Virus record (IMG/VR): IMGVR_UViG_3300030116_000368
Span: 1-24,087 of that record
DNA from: a virus
Length of the DNA: 24,087 nucleotides
Strand: one strand, 5' to 3'
Below, piece after piece: positions 7,319 to 22,038 of the stretch (position 1 is its first letter; the number at the start of each line of letters is the position of its first letter). Below the pieces are notes generated by a model. It worked only from the letters and a program-made list of their open reading frames with translations. It had not been told where the DNA came from and did not search any database. A program made the position numbers and the translations under genes.

Positions 7319-9721
7319 TTACCTTGCCCTTGCATTTTTGAAAGGAGATTCCGCAAAACATAAATATATATAAGTGTTTCCGCTTGTATTAAATGCACTA
7401 TTACTTGTTCTTATTTTAAAACCATTAGAAAGAAAATCTACTGTAGTAAATGTTGCCTCTGCTGAACTAGCATCTGCTTTTAAATTCAAATCAACTACAT
7501 TAAAAGTATTTCTTTTATTATCATAAATATACCAAGCTGCACTATTACTTATACGCTTCAAAATTAAGAAAGCTGGTCTAAACGAGGTGAAGACAAACGT
7601 ACCATTAGAATTGCCGTTGCCTGTATATTTTCCAAATTTGCTATACCCATCTACTCCGCTGAAACAGTAAGCTATATAATTATCACCACTTTTGTTAACA
7701 CTTAAATTGCCATTAGCGTCAACATCTCTAACAGTAAATGTAGATGAAGAATAATCTCTTATTTGAGAACCATATGCAGATTCCCCATTGGTACTATTTA
7801 CACGAATATTTTTAATGTTATAAGTACTATCAGAACTTAGACCTACATGCCAAGCTCTGTCCAAAGCAGAAGATGATCTATTTTTTATCCAAACAAAGTC
7901 AGGTGAAACGCCTAGTCCATGACCCATAGTAACATTTGTATTATCAGCACCAGTGCCTGTATAACCTACTATTGAGAACCCTGCAGAAGTATTAGCTCTA
8001 ACTTGTGATGTATTATTGCCATCATTATTAGTTACCGTAGACCCACCAGCGTTCCAGTTCCATGCAACAAAAGGTCTGCCGCCACTCCAGTTCGTATCAC
8101 CATCAGTTCCTGATTCAAAACCATTCTGTATAAAAGCTCTAATTTTATCAGTATCAGTTTGTTCAGCATAGTTCTCACTACTTACAAGATATTTATTACC
8201 ACCTCTTACAGCGTCAGACAAAATATGATCGTTTGTTACATCTCTAGTTTTTACCCAAACAAAATCAGGAGTAAAATCTACATCTGAATTTGTAATATTA
8301 ACAACGTCACCACTAGATCCTGTCCCTGTATAAGTAAAAGCTGCAAAATGTTTGTTAGGTAGCTTTATTGTTGGGTTGGGTAAGTTTGCTGAACATAATG
8401 CTTTATATCCACTAGGGACTGAGTAATAAAAATCTCCTTTTCCGTTTGCATCTGTATTTCCTTGTGCTGTTTTTTCTCCATCAAATGAACTATCTTGTCC
8501 AAAATTTGCTATAGCATCTGTGCTTCTACCTCCAGAGGTATCTTCTATAAAAGGAAAATACTCCGCATCCGTTGTATAAGTTGCGGAATAAACACTAGAG
8601 CCATTCCTAAAAAATTCTATACTTTTTGCATCTATATCAACTTTTACACCCATTATATCGCCAGAAGAAAATTGTCCTGTACCAGATTGTGCTGAACCAT
8701 CTATTCTTGGTGTTCCTTGGTAGAAATCTAAACTTTGATGAGTACCTCTATCTATTTCACAAATACCAACAAAACCACTATTGCTTTTATTAAGAACTTC
8801 AAAATATATCTTTCCTTGTGCTTTCATAGTTCCAGTTGTAAAACCTCTATTTCCTGATGATGAGGTCATTCTTAAATTAGCTCTAGAAAAACTTGCTTGA
8901 CCTCTATTTTTATTTGTATTTAAAGGATTGAGTGTACAAAAATTATTGGTAGGAGTATCTTTTACCGCATCACCAACGACTATTCCATTAGGTGTCCAAT
9001 TATTACCATTGCCACTTGAATCTTTACCGATTGTTGCAGCCGTATTGCTTGAGTTGTCTTCAAACTTGAGGTAGAACCCATTAGTTCCATAATTTATATT
9101 TACCTCTTCCTTTGGAGACCATACACCAGTTTCAGAATTTATTTCACCGAAATCTGATGCTGCATATTTATAACCATCACTATAATGACACTCTGCAAAA
9201 TACATATCCGCTCTATAAGTATGACCATCCCATCCTTGAGATCCCATTGCTTGAACATACCCTGACCTATTCATTGCAAACTCATAATCTGGTGGCTGAC
9301 CGCCTGTTATATTTTCCTCGACTCCATTAACCCATATTCTATGTGTGGTATTACCTGCATCAACTTGCCAGACAATATGATACCAAGCACCTACATCTCT
9401 ATAATCACGATCATTAACATCCCCATAAGGGTTTGCACCGCTAGTATCAAAATAAAACTGAAGTTTGTTATTACCACTTTTCCAATACAAAGCTGCTATA
9501 CCATCATTACCTGATTGTGCATTACAACTAAAAATATAATCATTATTATTAAGTTTGCCACGTTTAACCCAACCACTCCAAGTCCAAATTTTTCTATTAC
9601 CAGTAGATGTTGGAGTCCTTGTTAGATAGCCATTACTACCATCCATTTTTAAACTTCTCTCTATTTGATAACCTGTAGAAACCCCAGAAGAACCAAGTCG
9701 AATCGAATCAAATATAGTCAT
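7319..9721 (-). CDS. large tail fibre with LamG-like and SPRY-like domains and three C-terminal repeats
   Basis: 800 residues. Residues about 20-225 look like a concanavalin/LamG-type sandwich (WTWSGWVKRGKLNNNDYIFS, WYHIVWQVDAG, RIWVNGVEE). Residues about 280-410 look like a SPRY-type domain (GKIYFEVLNKSNSGFVGICE, GDIMGVKVDIDAKSIEFFRNG). From about 455 there are three related units of roughly 110 residues, each opening with Y-TG-[TN]-G and V-DF-PDFVW-K-like strands (about 458, 584, 698). The second and third units also share the ending YI-(3)-CF. Both named folds bind glycans or proteins, so this is a likely receptor-recognition fibre. The gene begins directly after the stop of the other 800-residue fibre (TAAATG) and is followed nine bases later by a probable assembly partner. 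Confidence 0.75.
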   Translation of the reverse strand: MTIFDSIRLGSSGVSTGYQIERSLKMDGSNGYLTRTPTSTGNRKIWTWSGWVKRGKLNNNDYIFSCNAQSGNDGIAALYWKSGNNKLQFYFDTSGANPYGDVNDRDYRDVGAWYHIVWQVDAGNTTHRIWVNGVEENITGGQPPDYEFAMNRSGYVQAMGSQGWDGHTYRADMYFAECHYSDGYKYAASDFGEINSETGVWSPKEEVNINYGTNGFYLKFEDNSSNTAATIGKDSSGNGNNWTPNGIVVGDAVKDTPTNNFCTLNPLNTNKNRGQASFSRANLRMTSSSGNRGFTTGTMKAQGKIYFEVLNKSNSGFVGICEIDRGTHQSLDFYQGTPRIDGSAQSGTGQFSSGDIMGVKVDIDAKSIEFFRNGSSVYSATYTTDAEYFPFIEDTSGGRSTDAIANFGQDSSFDGEKTAQGNTDANGKGDFYYSVPSGYKALCSANLPNPTIKLPNKHFAAFTYTGTGSSGDVVNITNSDVDFTPDFVWVKTRDVTNDHILSDAVRGGNKYLVSSENYAEQTDTDKIRAFIQNGFESGTDGDTNWSGGRPFVAWNWNAGGSTVTNNDGNNTSQVRANTSAGFSIVGYTGTGADNTNVTMGHGLGVSPDFVWIKNRSSSALDRAWHVGLSSDSTYNIKNIRVNSTNGESAYGSQIRDYSSSTFTVRDVDANGNLSVNKSGDNYIAYCFSGVDGYSKFGKYTGNGNSNGTFVFTSFRPAFLILKRISNSAAWYIYDNKRNTFNVVDLNLKADASSAEATFTTVDFLSNGFKIRTSNSAFNTSGNTYIYLCFAESPFKNARAR

Positions 9722-12124
9722 TTATTTTACGTCTAAGGTAACTACGCAATGTACATTATCTGAAGCACGAACAACATAATCTAATCTATCTACTGCGTTA
9801 GCTGCTGTTGATAAAGTTGGTGCTGTACCTCCAGCAAATTTGTAGTCAGAATGAAATGATGCTGTTCTACCGCCTGTACCGTCTTGAATAATAAAGATAG
9901 ATCCGCTAGAACCTATAGCACTTGATGTGCTGCTTGGATCTCCAAATGTTCTATTACCTCCAAGAGTTACAGTAAAGTGTGAAGCTGTTGTAAAATTAAC
10001 AGTTATCGTTGCACCGTCTGAAAGTGTTGAGACTGCGGAAGTTATATTTCCTGTGAAAGCTGTTCCAGCATTTGTGGTTTCTATTTTTTTACTGTTATTG
10101 TAATATAGCTCTACTGCTCCATCAGGAATAAATTTAGCAATATCTTCTGAACTACCTTTAGTAATATTAATAGTAGTATCAGTTTTTATTTTAAAATCAC
10201 TTGTGCTTGTACTTTCAATAATATTCTCATTACTAGCATGATATATTGCTAAATCATTTCCAGTTCCAAATATTGCCTTATCATTATCAGCAAAATCAAT
10301 ATCATTACCATTACTCTGTAAATCACCACCAAGTTGTGGTGATGTGTCATCAACAACATCTACGTTTGCAAGTTTTGTCCTTGCTATTGCTGCACTACTT
10401 GAAATATCAACATTAACAATAGTTCCATCAACTATCTTTGCACTTGTTACTGTGTTATCACCAGGAGTTCCAATGGCGATTGTCGCACCCATATTAATAA
10501 TGAAATATGTAGACCCACTAGGAGGAGCAGAATCAAAAATTATATCTGTACCACTAACAACATATCCATCTGTCATATCTCCCTGTCCAGATCCATCATT
10601 GGGTTGCTGCATAACACCATTGATAGATACTCTTAATATTTCTGCATTAGCTGGTGTTACTGCATTACTTGTACCTTTGGTAACAAGCTTAAATCTGTAA
10701 GCAGATCCATTAAATGTAGCCGATCCACCACCCGTTCCAGAGGATGAGGCAATATCTAATAAGTCTGCTGTTCCTGTAGCTGCTGATCCACCTATCTCTC
10801 CCCAAGCACTACCATCGTACCCTTCAAATTCTGATGTCTGACTATTGAATCTGAACATACCAGCAGAAGGAGAGCCAGGTCTTTGTGCTGTAGTTCCAGA
10901 AGCAACATCAATAGCTCCTGTTCCTGTCATCAAAATATTGTCGCTGACAGTAAATGTGCCAGTAACATCCATATTCCCACTAACACTTAGGCTAGACAAT
11001 AAAGTTCCTGTAGCTGTTGCAGAGTTTGTCTGGATCGCATTACCCATCAACGCATGAGATGAACATTGATAATGAATAACCATCGGAGTAGTATCTCCTA
11101 TGACAATCTGCACATATGCACCACTTTGACCTGCTGTGCCATTTACAGTTACGTTTGTTGTATAAGCTGTAGTTTTATTTGCTTCAAGATAAAAACGTAA
11201 AGGATGACCAGTATTACTTGAATCTGATTGATCAAATTTATAAGTACGACCAGGTGTAAGAGTTAAAAATGGTGCTTCCTTACCATCTATTACATATCCA
11301 TTACTAGAGCCACTTCCGTTATATCTATGTGCTGCGGTCTTAGTTGCGACAGTAACAGTAAAAGTTTTGACAGATCCAGTATATGTAGCCTGAGTAGAAG
11401 CAAATCCTCTAATATTCCCATCATCAGTAAGAGTTAGCGTACCAGTAAAGTTAGGATCTGCATTCTGTCCAGGAGCCACCCAACTAAGAACTCCAGAAGC
11501 ATTACTTGATAAAACATATCCACTTACAGAAGAATCAGCAGAAGGTAATGTCCAGACTACATTAGATGAGACTGTTGCAGGAGATTTAAAACCAACATAA
11601 TGAGATGAGTCTGCATCTAAATATCTAACTTCTTTTTGACCAGAAACAGATAAATGTTCACTACTTGTCCATGAATCTGTTGCATTTACCCAATTAAATG
11701 TCTTATCAGATGCACCTTTAAGAGTTAAACCACCGCCATCGGCAGTTGTATCAGTCGGAGTTGAGACTTTTCCAAGAGTAATATTTTTATCTTCGACATC
11801 AAGTGTGGTTGTATTTATTGTGGTAGTCGTTCCACCAACAGTTAAATCTCCTACGATATTTACAAGACCAGCAGAACTGATAGACATTCTGCCAGTTCCA
11901 CCTGTGCTAAAGGTTAGAGTATCCGATCCTCCACTTATTCCTGTATTTGGATCGGAATTAAAACTAAATGCAGGAGCAGAAGTAGATCCATCTGGAGCTT
12001 TACTTAATAAATTTGCATAACTTATCTTCTTGTTACTTGTATCACTTGCATCAATAATCGGTAGAACATCAGTGCTCGCTGGTGCGGTGAGCTCTTGAAA
12101 TTCAGTTATCTTTTTATTTGTCAT
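9722..12124 (-). CDS. large modular tail fibre with a cupredoxin-like domain
   Basis: 800 residues built of modules common in marine cyanophage fibres. The N-terminus is MTNKKITEFQELTAP. At about 104-150 is a DVEDKNITLGKV unit with GGLTLKGASDKTFNWVNATD. Residues about 247-370 resemble a cupredoxin, with GHP at 306-308 and HYQCSSHALMGN at 351-362. A motif around EGYDGSAWGE (about 434-443) is shared with the collar fibre. An INGVMQQPN unit follows at about 500, then PQLGGDLQSNGNDIDF and ELYYNNSKKIETTNAG units. The end is a FAGGTAPTLSTAANAVDR tip. It is probably a trimeric side or tip fibre. It begins two bases after the collar-fibre gene and joins the next fibre without a gap. Confidence 0.8.
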   Translation of the reverse strand: MTNKKITEFQELTAPASTDVLPIIDASDTSNKKISYANLLSKAPDGSTSAPAFSFNSDPNTGISGGSDTLTFSTGGTGRMSISSAGLVNIVGDLTVGGTTTTINTTTLDVEDKNITLGKVSTPTDTTADGGGLTLKGASDKTFNWVNATDSWTSSEHLSVSGQKEVRYLDADSSHYVGFKSPATVSSNVVWTLPSADSSVSGYVLSSNASGVLSWVAPGQNADPNFTGTLTLTDDGNIRGFASTQATYTGSVKTFTVTVATKTAAHRYNGSGSSNGYVIDGKEAPFLTLTPGRTYKFDQSDSSNTGHPLRFYLEANKTTAYTTNVTVNGTAGQSGAYVQIVIGDTTPMVIHYQCSSHALMGNAIQTNSATATGTLLSSLSVSGNMDVTGTFTVSDNILMTGTGAIDVASGTTAQRPGSPSAGMFRFNSQTSEFEGYDGSAWGEIGGSAATGTADLLDIASSSGTGGGSATFNGSAYRFKLVTKGTSNAVTPANAEILRVSINGVMQQPNDGSGQGDMTDGYVVSGTDIIFDSAPPSGSTYFIINMGATIAIGTPGDNTVTSAKIVDGTIVNVDISSSAAIARTKLANVDVVDDTSPQLGGDLQSNGNDIDFADNDKAIFGTGNDLAIYHASNENIIESTSTSDFKIKTDTTINITKGSSEDIAKFIPDGAVELYYNNSKKIETTNAGTAFTGNITSAVSTLSDGATITVNFTTASHFTVTLGGNRTFGDPSSTSSAIGSSGSIFIIQDGTGGRTASFHSDYKFAGGTAPTLSTAANAVDRLDYVVRASDNVHCVVTLDVK

Positions 12125-18289: not shown

Positions 18290-18630
18290 TAAGGTTCAAA
18301 TACTTGCTGAAACGTCATATTTAAACTAGCTCGATTTACATAAGGAATTGTTTTATCCCAACTAAGACATATCCATTTATAGGCAGCACCACTTCCAGGA
18401 GGTTGCCAATCAAAAGATTCACGATCTAAGGCTCTTGCCTCAAGAAATGCCTCTATAACATCAGAATCTGCTTCGCTTACTTCAAAATTAAGTGACCAAA
18501 CATAAGGAATTGTATTTAATCCAAACGCAATTCTATGTTGGTAACCATCATTAAACTGAGTAATATTTATTTCTGGTATTGTAGTCTTACGAGCATTGTA
18601 AGTAGGTTGAATTGATGGAAAAGTAGCCAT
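18289..18630 (-). CDS. M: minor tail protein, lambda M-like
   Basis: 113 residues, about the usual length for the family. It has the typical N-terminal pattern TTIPEINITQFNDGYQHRIAFG, the beta-strand VWSLNFEVSEADSDVIEAFL, and a closing strand set FDWQPPGSGAAYKWICLSW and NMTFQQVFEP. Lambda M is a small tail tip protein between the tape measure and L, and the position here is the same. Its ATG overlaps the tape-measure stop by one base (TAATG) and it runs into L with the same kind of overlap. Nothing looks broken. It should sit in the tail tip ring near the distal tube end. Confidence 0.85.
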   Translation of the reverse strand: MATFPSIQPTYNARKTTIPEINITQFNDGYQHRIAFGLNTIPYVWSLNFEVSEADSDVIEAFLEARALDRESFDWQPPGSGAAYKWICLSWDKTIPYVNRASLNMTFQQVFEP

Positions 18631-21011
18631 TAGCTTAATAAACCTCCTGGTCTTCTTTGTTTAATTAATTCTGATTGTATTGCTGCTGATAACATTTGTC
18701 CTAATTCCTTACCTCTTTCTTGATCACCTTCAACAGAAGATCCAGAAGCATCCACATTTACTACAACATTAGTTGAACCACCCATATCAGAGTTAGGAAC
18801 TATACGACCACCTGCATTTGGAACAAACATTTCTGGCCCACGTTCTCCAACCATGTAACTTTTACCAGCACTAACAGGACCTCCATTTGCTCTGAAAAAT
18901 CCACCGACTCCAGGCAAGGAGCCAAGAAAAGCATTTACACCGAATCTAATTAATGATCTTTGTATTTCTGCAAAAACACTACGAGCAACATCTCCAAGGG
19001 TTTTAGTACCATTTATAGCACCTTCAATAGCAGTAACAATTCCATTTTCGATACTAGAAGCAATATTATTATAAAGATCCAAAGTTATTTTTAATTGATG
19101 ATTTTCAATTTCTAATTTTTCATTTAATTTTAACTGTTTTCTTGCTTTATTTTCTAAATCGGTTAATGCTTTATCATCAAGATGACTATTATTTTGTTTA
19201 ATAACAGCTATTGCAGATTCAATTCCAAACGAACTTTTTAAAGCATCTTGTTTTTTTCTTAAATTACCCTCTTCAGTTTGCAGCACTTCTAATACCTTAT
19301 CTGCATCATTACCACCAAGACCTAAATTATTACCTATTCCTAAACTTTTTGATAATCCACTTAATGAATTTGAAAGAGCATTTAATTCTTCATCACTTCT
19401 TCCAGCAAAATTAAAACCACCTGGACCTATATCAGTATCTACTAAACCTAAGGGAGTTTGTTGTTTTAATATTTGAGATAACAAACCCAAACCGATTTCT
19501 TTTGCAGTTCTTGGATTATCTTTAATAAATTGGCTAAAGGCTTCAGGATTATTTCTTTGTAAAGCTCTTAACTGATTTCCAACTCTTGATTCTAAAACTT
19601 GTCTACCTACTACTTTATTTATTAAATCAATAACTTTTGCTAATGGACCTGCTGCTAATATTTGAAATTGAGTTGTTAAAATACCAAACTGTCTTGATAA
19701 TTCTTCCATTTCAGAACTAAATTTCTGCACATCTTCTACAGCAATTGCACCTAATGTATTACCTAAATCTCTAGTAATAAGTTCATTTAATTCAGATTGT
19801 CTACCTTGTCTTTTCAATGCTTCTGCTTGTTTTTGTATAGCTTTACTACTAAATAAATTACGATCTGTTATTAATTTTAAAGCACCATCAGTTGTTTCTA
19901 ATGCTTTACCAAAATCATTTAAACTTTTAATAAGTCTATCTATTGCAGCACCAACAGATGTACCAACAAGAGATAATGCAAAACCAAATTGACCTCCCAA
20001 TAAACCACCTGCACCACCACCTAAACCACCACCAGCAGCAGCACCTAATCCTTGACCAAATAATAAAGGAAAAGCTCCACCAATAAGTGCATTTGAAACT
20101 GCTTGACCTCTTCTGGCTCTGGCTGTACGACTACGACCTGTTAATCCTTGTCTAATTCTGTTAAAAGGATTGTCTAAAATACGTTGCCTTCTTCTTCTAC
20201 TTGATTGTGAAAGCATTAATTCTCTACTTGTTTCAAGTTTGGTCTGTTGTTCTATATTTCTAGTTATTAATTCTTCAAAAGTTAAATCTTTACGTTTATT
20301 TCTTAAACTTCTTATTTCCATCTGTCCTAATTTTGATTGCAACTCAAATTCTTCTCTTTGAATTCTTAAACTTCTTCCTTCTACATTGACGCTTTGACCA
20401 AATAAACTCTGTCCAGGTTCTATTGATGATCTTGGTGGTAATGGAGATCTAGGAGGTAATGGGGAAGATAAGGCAATATCTGATCTAGGAGGTAGTCTCG
20501 AAAATAAATTAGAAGGAACCGCTTGTCCAGGTCCAATCGGACCGCTATACGCAGTTGCACCTGTAATTGATCTACTAAAAGCAGCAAAAGAATTACCAGC
20601 AACAGGATTTAATGGCTGTACTGGTTTACGTTGTCTTAATTCTTGATTTCTTCTTATAGATTTTTCAATAGGACTAATTCCTTTACCTATATTTCCAAAT
20701 TGATTTAATAATTTATTTCCAATTATTAACTCTTTATTTAATTCTCTTTGTGCTACAACTAACTCTTTTGCAGCTTTTCTTTGGACAGATGTGCCCACAG
20801 CAGCATCATTAAAATTTTTTTTTGCTTCACCTACGGCTTTACTTAAAGTATTAAAACTTTTAACAACTAATTCATTTTCTTTAGCTAACAATTGCATATT
20901 TTTATTTACTACCTTACTTATCTCTTCTGTCTCTTTTATTTGCTTATTAAATGCTTGTAATTTCTGAGCACCTTTAAGTGCAAGTAAAATATCAACAGTA
21001 TAACTAGCCAC
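18630..21011 (-). CDS. H: tail tape measure protein
   Basis: 793 residues from a GTG at 21009-21011. The first 130 residues are coiled-coil-like. A Pro/Ser/Arg linker with three PPRS units follows (about 160-200). An Arg-rich patch (SSRRRRQR, about 270-277) precedes a glycine/alanine-rich hydrophobic stretch (about 303-360), the usual membrane-active segment of tape measures. Long helices follow, and the end carries VGERGPEMFVPNAGG, a common tape-measure C-terminal motif. By the rule of about 0.15 nm per residue the tail would be roughly 115-120 nm long. A weak AAGAAG lies just before the start. The gene follows the G/T frameshift pair and precedes M, exactly as in lambda-type tails. Confidence 0.9.
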   Translation of the reverse strand: MASYTVDILLALKGAQKLQAFNKQIKETEEISKVVNKNMQLLAKENELVVKSFNTLSKAVGEAKKNFNDAAVGTSVQRKAAKELVVAQRELNKELIIGNKLLNQFGNIGKGISPIEKSIRRNQELRQRKPVQPLNPVAGNSFAAFSRSITGATAYSGPIGPGQAVPSNLFSRLPPRSDIALSSPLPPRSPLPPRSSIEPGQSLFGQSVNVEGRSLRIQREEFELQSKLGQMEIRSLRNKRKDLTFEELITRNIEQQTKLETSRELMLSQSSRRRRQRILDNPFNRIRQGLTGRSRTARARRGQAVSNALIGGAFPLLFGQGLGAAAGGGLGGGAGGLLGGQFGFALSLVGTSVGAAIDRLIKSLNDFGKALETTDGALKLITDRNLFSSKAIQKQAEALKRQGRQSELNELITRDLGNTLGAIAVEDVQKFSSEMEELSRQFGILTTQFQILAAGPLAKVIDLINKVVGRQVLESRVGNQLRALQRNNPEAFSQFIKDNPRTAKEIGLGLLSQILKQQTPLGLVDTDIGPGGFNFAGRSDEELNALSNSLSGLSKSLGIGNNLGLGGNDADKVLEVLQTEEGNLRKKQDALKSSFGIESAIAVIKQNNSHLDDKALTDLENKARKQLKLNEKLEIENHQLKITLDLYNNIASSIENGIVTAIEGAINGTKTLGDVARSVFAEIQRSLIRFGVNAFLGSLPGVGGFFRANGGPVSAGKSYMVGERGPEMFVPNAGGRIVPNSDMGGSTNVVVNVDASGSSVEGDQERGKELGQMLSAAIQSELIKQRRPGGLLS

Positions 21012-21042
21012 TTCTTATAAAAATTAAAACATTTTCTCTATA

Positions 21043-21237
21043 TTACCTCTTTTTACCTTTTAAAGCACTAGATCTTTGAGTTTGATCTCTTTGTTTTTCA
21101 TAATCTTCTCGTTCTAAATCGTTATAAGCAATCCAACCTAGTAATTCTTCTACTGTAAGTTCTTCGCATAATTGATTTACAGTTTTACCAAGTTCTTTTG
21201 CTAATGAATATATAAATCGCCAATCATTATTTGCTTT
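21043..21237 (-). CDS. T: T extension of the tail assembly chaperone, reached only by frameshift
   Basis: A 64-codon frame without any ATG, GTG or TTG near its beginning follows G in another frame. Its upstream limit is a TGA at 21238-21240 and it ends with TAA at 21043-21045. The product begins NDWRFIYSLAKELGKTVNQL and continues CEELTVEELLGWIAYNDLER. This matches the T-domain pattern of phage tail chaperones (DWR.I..LA..LG.T...L......E..GW.AY), ending in a charged tail. In lambda, G-T is made as a fusion by frameshift and binds the tape measure during tail assembly. Because no start codon is available, this part must be made as a G-T fusion of about 179 residues. Confidence 0.85.
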   Translation of the reverse strand, partial: KANNDWRFIYSLAKELGKTVNQLCEELTVEELLGWIAYNDLEREDYEKQRDQTQRSSALKGKKR

Positions 21238-21583
21238 TCAAATCAGCTTTCGCTGTTTCAACCTCTCTATTTATTCCAGCTTCTATCATTGCTAACTGTA
21301 TTTCTTGTAAAACATTTGCTTCTATCTCTCTTCTTAAAGAAGCCTTATCTCCATCTGAAAATAATCTATTACCATCTTGATCTAATGCTTTTTCTATCAT
21401 TAACTGAAGAGCATAATTATTAGCATCTTCAGAACCACTTTTTTTCTGTATTGATTCTCGTTCCGCAATAGTTAAAGGATGCCAATAAACAGTAAGGATG
21501 ATCTCATCATTCTGTTTTACATCATGTTTGTAAAGTTGAGAAACTCCAAACTTGTTTCTTAAAAGATCAACTGCTCTTGTCAT
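21227..21583 (-). CDS. G: tail assembly chaperone, lambda G-like
   Basis: 118 residues, between the tail terminator and the tape measure. The product has a short N-terminal beta part (DEIILTVYWHPLTIAERESI) followed by helices rich in Glu and Lys. The WHPLTIAERE pattern and the size fit the G family of tail assembly chaperones. In lambda, G and the frameshifted G-T coat the tape measure and recruit the tube protein, and neither is in the finished tail. Here G ends KADLKSK and TAA at 21227-21229, and the T extension continues in the +1 frame. It begins 26 bases after the tail terminator gene. The start codon is ATG at 21583. Confidence 0.8.
   Translation of the reverse strand: MTRAVDLLRNKFGVSQLYKHDVKQNDEIILTVYWHPLTIAERESIQKKSGSEDANNYALQLMIEKALDQDGNRLFSDGDKASLRREIEANVLQEIQLAMIEAGINREVETAKADLKSK
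21233..21239 (-). promoter_or_regulatory. probable +1 programmed frameshift site in G/T
   Basis: In G the mRNA reads UUG AAA AGC AAA UAA. The T frame is +1 relative to G and is blocked upstream by TGA (21238-21240). G stops at 21227-21229, so the shift must occur within about ten bases. The Lys tRNA on AAA (21236-21238) can move one base forward and pair again with AAA (21235-21237), after which the next codon is GCA instead of AGC. The joined sequence reads ADLK then ANNDWRF. A -2 shift would also reach the frame but shows no good re-pairing. Confidence 0.65.
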
Positions 21584-21609: not shown

Positions 21610-22038
21610 CTAAGCGTTGGCGGTAAATTGGCAAGATATTAAGCCAAGAAAGTGTGAGGAATCATCTAATTCAATAGGAGCAGGGCCAACAACATCAAGC
21701 ACTCTAGGATCACAACTAAACGTATCACTATAACCAGGAGCATTAACAGAAGTAAGCCCATCAATAACAGCTTCTCCTAGTGCAGATAAAGTTGCAGTAC
21801 CTTTTCCTCTTGGAACATAAATATTGCATTGAATAACACCAGAATAAAAATCCTGTGATGCACCTTGAGTTTGAGTTGTTGCCTGTGCAAAATCTACTGA
21901 CATAAGAATATATTTTTTTGTTTTGCCTGGTGTTTTATAAACCATATTGTCATAGACCATTTCAACAGTAGCATCTACTGCTGCAACTGCGTCTGTTACT
22001 GCTTTTTCAAAAGCTGCTCTTGTGTTAACTAAAGTCAT
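21610..22038 (-). CDS. tail terminator protein
   Basis: 142 residues. The N-terminal helix (TRAAFEKAVTDAVAAVDA), the central strands (KKYILMSVDFAQATTQTQ), the pattern GVIQCNIYVPRGKGTATLSALG, and the ending FLGLISCQFTANA match the tail-terminator fold, which caps the tube by forming a hexamer and joins it to the head. Its length is normal for that family. The ATG overlaps the previous gene's stop as ATGA (22035-22038). By lambda order a tail-tube gene should follow it, but the next gene is the chaperone G only 26 bases on. Confidence 0.75.
   Translation of the reverse strand: MTLVNTRAAFEKAVTDAVAAVDATVEMVYDNMVYKTPGKTKKYILMSVDFAQATTQTQGASQDFYSGVIQCNIYVPRGKGTATLSALGEAVIDGLTSVNAPGYSDTFSCDPRVLDVVGPAPIELDDSSHFLGLISCQFTANA

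Follow-up and report, generated by a model that had tools for sequence, protein, structure and literature searches.

Phages lambda (G/GT) and HK97 (gp13/gp14) extend their tail assembly chaperones by a -1 frameshift, and phage Mu shifts by -2. In lambda and HK97, a short T frame that has no start codon lies at the end of G, and the two precede the tape measure gene in the order G then T. Across the tailed phages, the two chaperone products arise through -1, -2 or +1 shifts depending on the phage, and the haloarchaeal HSTV-2 is described as very likely +1 (PMC5009743). The Listeria phages PSA, A118 and A500 shift +1 at CCC_UGA in another tail gene, that of the tail shaft (PMC5009743). In PRFect, a run of four identical bases ahead of a less used codon counts as a forward motif of tail chaperones (PMC10885494). 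Forward shifts in tail chaperones are, as such, already known.

We analyzed a stretch of viral DNA of 24,087 nucleotides, referred to as the window, in which the chaperone gene has the layout of lambda and HK97 but appears to shift +1 at AAA_AGC instead of -1. As in HSTV-2 and the Listeria phages, a forward shift would extend a tail-related protein; the Listeria sites place a proline CCC before a stop, whereas here the site is AAA_AGC and the stop lies at a variable distance. AAA_AGC is a simple candidate forward site outside the usual CUU_UGA and CCC_UGA types. A search of the open literature, limited to openly accessible papers, returned nothing on AAA_AGC in these phages; what is new is this site, its scale, its upstream elements, and the apparent switching of direction among relatives.

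The G and T frames

The genes and codons at the junction, with positions counted in the window, are as follows.

21610-22038: tail terminator (phrog_179)
21227..21583, minus strand: G, tail assembly chaperone, 0-frame product of 118 aa (phrog_20784, phrog_344, fold, gene position)
21236..21238, minus strand: candidate slip codon AAA (P site) in the G frame, which would re-pair on the AAA at 21237-21235 (AAA in 305/305 +1 loci)
21233..21235, minus strand: A-site codon AGC; the +1-frame codon GCA is 21234-21232
21041..21237, minus strand: T extension, +1 frame, 64 codons plus stop, no start codon (translation, phrog_337, homologous T frames)
18630..21011, minus strand: tape measure protein, directly downstream of T (phrog_167, 6e-14)

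The gene order is thus tail terminator, G, T and tape measure, G and T immediately preceding the tape measure gene. Read on the minus strand, G ends in GCT GAT TTG AAA AGC AAA TAA, its stop being the TAA at 21229-21227. The T frame lies at +1 relative to G, opens inside the slip AAA and runs, without its stop, from 21237 to 21044 (translation KANNDWRFIYSL...KGKKR). It is bounded upstream by a TGA at 21240-21238, after which its 64 open codons read KANNDWRFIYSLAKELGKTV...KGKKR, and it is closed by a TAA at 21043-21041. Position 21043, at which the sequence-only reading began the locus, is the first base of this stop codon in the minus-strand reading. That reading had put the stretch available for the shift at about ten bases, close to the 11 nt found here.

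G is a tail assembly chaperone of the lambda G/HK97 gp13 type. It matches phrog_20784 (3.8e-25) and the tail assembly chaperone family phrog_344 (1.2e-5), and the best solved match of its AlphaFold2 model (pLDDT 79) is the HK97 tail assembly chaperone gp13, 2ob9 (Foldseek prob 1.00; VIA Z 8.4, rmsd 4.0, 100 residues). The sequence profile alone matched no solved structure. A profile search with T had been expected to reach known T or G-T families: it found the tail protein family phrog_337 (4.3e-7) and, weakly, HK97-type T, while none of G, T and GT had a Pfam match above the cut-off. Bacterial genomes scanned with G yielded no relative, and hence no host is indicated.

Joined by the +1 step, G and T form a protein of 179 residues. 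Residues 34-153 of this GT align to residues 37-153 of phrog_16513 (tail assembly chaperone), across the junction, with an E value of 1.5e-6, as compared to 0.1 for G alone. The fused protein likewise matches phrog_14766 across the junction.

Elsewhere in the window, at 7319-12124, we note two adjacent tail-region open reading frames of identical length (800 aa each) and different sequence.

The candidate slip site across homologous loci

Searches with G and T as queries yielded several hundred IMG/VR loci plus seven phage records, and 494 homologous loci were sorted by the frame of T. T lies at +1 in 305 of these, and AAA_AG is present at the junction in all 305, followed by a third base that makes the next codon AGC in 297, AGT in 5 and AGA in 3. 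The +1 loci fall into the window's own group (161), the L191 group (89) and the L203 group (55), the G proteins of the latter two being only ~35-40% identical to that of the window. The phage of this window is probably marine, because a seawater single-cell record belongs to its group (a literature search on that record, AG-345-A17, returned nothing); the L191 and L203 groups probably come from fresh water or estuaries.

Read alone, a single window might owe such a frame relation to a sequencing or assembly error or to a broken gene. The same relation recurs, however, in 161 close loci, the single-cell record included, and in a further 144 from the two distant groups, and T carries synonymous changes. 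The number of independent contigs refutes an error, which we regard as the least probable of the explanations considered here.

The invariance of AAA_AG goes well beyond codon usage. In the non-redundant sets of the window's, L191 and L203 groups, the slip Lys is AAA in 99/99, 52/52 and 34/34 sequences, although AAA accounts for 76, 53 and 38% of the other Lys codons of the same genes; AAG, which makes up 24-62% of these, never occurs at the slip. The following codon is AGC in 98/99, 52/52 and 29/34, as compared to an AGC share of 6, 16 and 33% among the other Ser codons. Simple probabilities from such counts would overstate the case because the sequences are related. The AGC is also partly fixed by the T-frame Ala codon that overlaps it, but L203-group members with AGT/Val or AGA/Glu at this point indicate that AAA_AG itself is the conserved part. 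In the window's group, two loci (L238 and L213) carry AGA or AGT in place of AGC after AAA and represent natural mutants of the A-site codon.

T opens inside or before the slip AAA in every +1 locus. In the window's group, 98/99 sequences encode Ala at the first T codon after the slip and all four Ala codons are in use; T-frame reading therefore starts exactly at the slip. A conserved Trp follows four codons later. No ATG, GTG or TTG occurs in the T frame before codon 6 in 252/252 +1 loci, and mostly none before codon 12. These observations bear on the proposal that T is translated separately, by ribosomes that reinitiate past the G stop on a non-standard start. The proximity of that stop to the opening of T and the Shine-Dalgarno-like sequence upstream would suit reinitiation, but the conserved Ala and Trp precede any start codon, the distance to the stop varies while AAA_AG is constant, and the fused protein matches contiguous chaperone families. 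We consider separate translation of T very improbable.

A shift of -2 would lead into the same frame, and the window alone is compatible with it; the sequence-only reading had left this option beside +1. Among the relatives, the codon before AAA may be TTA, TTG, ATG, CTG, TCC, TCT, AGC, GCC, ATC, CTC or ACG, and it is especially variable in the L203 group. For a -2 step after AAA, tRNA-Lys must pair with the last two bases of this codon plus an A, and a freely varying codon prevents such re-pairing; a -2 step after AGC would place tRNA-Ser on AAA. We therefore set the -2 shift aside as highly unlikely.

Slippage of the RNA polymerase on the A run could also, in principle, join the two frames, and an A run is indeed present at the site. 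The run is only 4-5 A in 305/305 loci, whereas the slippage runs that have been described are longer than 7 A (PMC3711429), and we give this explanation even less weight than the preceding two.

From the start of the slip codon to the end of the G stop, the distance is 9-30 nt among the +1 loci, and the upstream T-frame stop is missing in 25/55 L203 loci. The upstream stop is not part of the signal. Taken together with the free preceding codon, these variations reduce the core signal to AAA_AGN. Of the features that the sequence-only reading proposed to test in alignments, the AAA-A site is kept and the stop limits vary. Its start-less T frame at +1 of G holds in the 305 +1 loci, relatives show neither an in-frame T start nor a sequencing error behind the frame, and the conserved slip site lends support to the putative LK-ANND junction.

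A probable forward slip and candidate upstream RNA elements

Our preferred reading, to which we assign a probability of about 0.9, is programmed +1 frameshifting in which the peptidyl-tRNA-Lys moves off AAA onto the AAA that overlaps it, with AGC waiting in the A site. Some fraction of the ribosomes, having translated TTG AAA, would pause at the A-site AGC; the P-site Lys-tRNA would release and re-pair fully one base forward, and GCA would be read next to give the G-T fusion (...DLK-ANNDWRF...). The minor GT product would then link the tape measure and the tail tube protein, as in lambda. Because the distance to the G stop varies, the pause is not set by the stop codon and is more likely to be set by AGC. 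The idea that AGC is very rare was not borne out: at 6.5 per 1000 it ranks 27th in rarity among the window's 61 codons, a moderate value (GCA and GCT stand at about 35 per 1000), and its slowness is therefore an assumption. In yeast, AAA-AGG-C shifts +1 at 1.2%, as compared to 0.02-0.05% with faster A-site codons (PMC4627075 Table 3), which supports slippage at AAA while an AGN codon waits. At the +1 sites of Ty1, Ty3 and prfB, too, the P-site tRNA slips while a codon waits in the A site; their codons differ from AAA_AGC.

Two candidate RNA elements lie upstream of the slip codon.

21261..21268, minus strand: Shine-Dalgarno-like sequence AGAGAGGU, its end 22 nt upstream of the slip codon
21244..21255, minus strand: mini-hairpin CAGC-GAAA-GCUG near the E site (alifold energy, pair conservation)

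In the window's group, the sequence is constrained at the RNA level. The five most synonymously biased codons of G, counted from the slip codon, are -10 AAG, -9 GAG, -6 GAG, -3 GCC and +1 AGC, all within 10 codons of the slip. Codons -10 and -9 plus the next codon spell AAGGAGGU, a perfect Shine-Dalgarno sequence that is carried by most of the group, the window itself having the weaker form listed above. Matches of >=8 nt are found in 73/99 non-redundant sequences vs 1/495 control stretches, and the mean anti-Shine-Dalgarno duplex at this point, -12 kcal/mol, is the strongest within 180 nt. Codons -6 to -3 form the hairpin, which reads GGC-NAAA-GCC in most of the group; its alifold energy is lower than in column-shuffled alignments, with z between about -4 and -21 according to the stretch taken. 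At the third base, G pairs with C in 144/161 loci and A with U in 17/161, with no mismatch. The A-U form is confined to one lineage, so that the covariation amounts to one event, and the hairpin is small. Both upstream signals are weaker in the L191 and L203 groups than in the window's group.

No downstream structure was predicted in any of the three +1 groups. In vitro, +1 shifting is stimulated by a Shine-Dalgarno duplex or by a hairpin next to the E site and is opposed by downstream structure (PMC6321510). These results are in line with the upstream elements and with the lack of any predicted downstream structure, though the Shine-Dalgarno sequence here is more distant: like prfB, the window's group has an upstream duplex, here a predicted one, but at 22 nt it lies farther from the slip codon than the E-site-adjacent one of prfB, and also farther than the 8-11 nt of -1 sites (PMC6321510). 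The sequence evidence for the Shine-Dalgarno-like sequence and the hairpin is strong in the window's group, where the two would probably assist the forward slip from behind. We speculate that the folded hairpin shortens the path.

Relatives with T at -1

The AAA_AG site is widespread, and related phages shift -1 at the same place. T lies at -1 in 189/494 loci, of the KBS-S-2A, S-H1, MED4-184 and HTVC types, with the cyanophage isolates KBS-S-2A, S-H1 and MED4-184 and the pelagiphages HTVC026P/202P among them. These phages have the same G and T families and the same junction position in the protein but, unlike the window, shift -1 at A_AAA_AAC/AAA (108 loci) or A_AAG (81 loci, assigned by scan and less sure). 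In the KBS group, two strong conserved stem-loops lie downstream of A_AAA_AAC, about 13-78 nt past the slip codon (alifold z of -8.7 in one tested stretch and -15 in the other; L083 and L169-L189); they are a likely -1 stimulator. A weaker downstream stem-loop is found in the S-H1 group. Upstream and downstream RNA elements are present or absent in step with the direction of the slip, and these homologous genes, with the same protein junction and opposite slips, offer a natural experiment on the direction of programmed frameshifting.

On a tree of 43 joined proteins labeled by direction of shift, the label requires 4 changes, and at least 3 of these are forced by well-supported branches. When the junction is taken out and the long branches and outgroup are dropped, 3 changes are required. 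The L191 +1 group is nested within the KBS -1 group (support 98/98 and 99/98), and KBS-like and L191-like sequences, on either side of one switch, show a net length difference of 2 nt at the site. The AU test does not firmly reject a single +1 clade (p = 0.052), and the three changes could represent a gain plus two losses. Several switches of slip direction seem to have taken place within a single gene family. We put at slightly below even odds the fuller proposal that the direction flipped several times through small indels at the junction and that the stimulatory RNA was replaced at the same time (stem-loops downstream for -1; a new upstream module of a distant Shine-Dalgarno sequence, a hairpin near the E site and AAA_AGC for +1 in the window's group).

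The start-less nature of T explains how gene finders have overlooked it in common aquatic phages. In the phage records of KBS-S-2A, MED4-184, S-2L and HTVC026P, the -1 T frames (L083 3322-3497, L085 3340-3521, L086 3382-3506 and L087 3244-3410) have no annotated gene of their own, and the extended chaperone is therefore missed in those annotations too. In one MED4-184-like contig (L142), the T frame ends early, about 104 nt past the G stop, probably owing to a sequencing or assembly slip.
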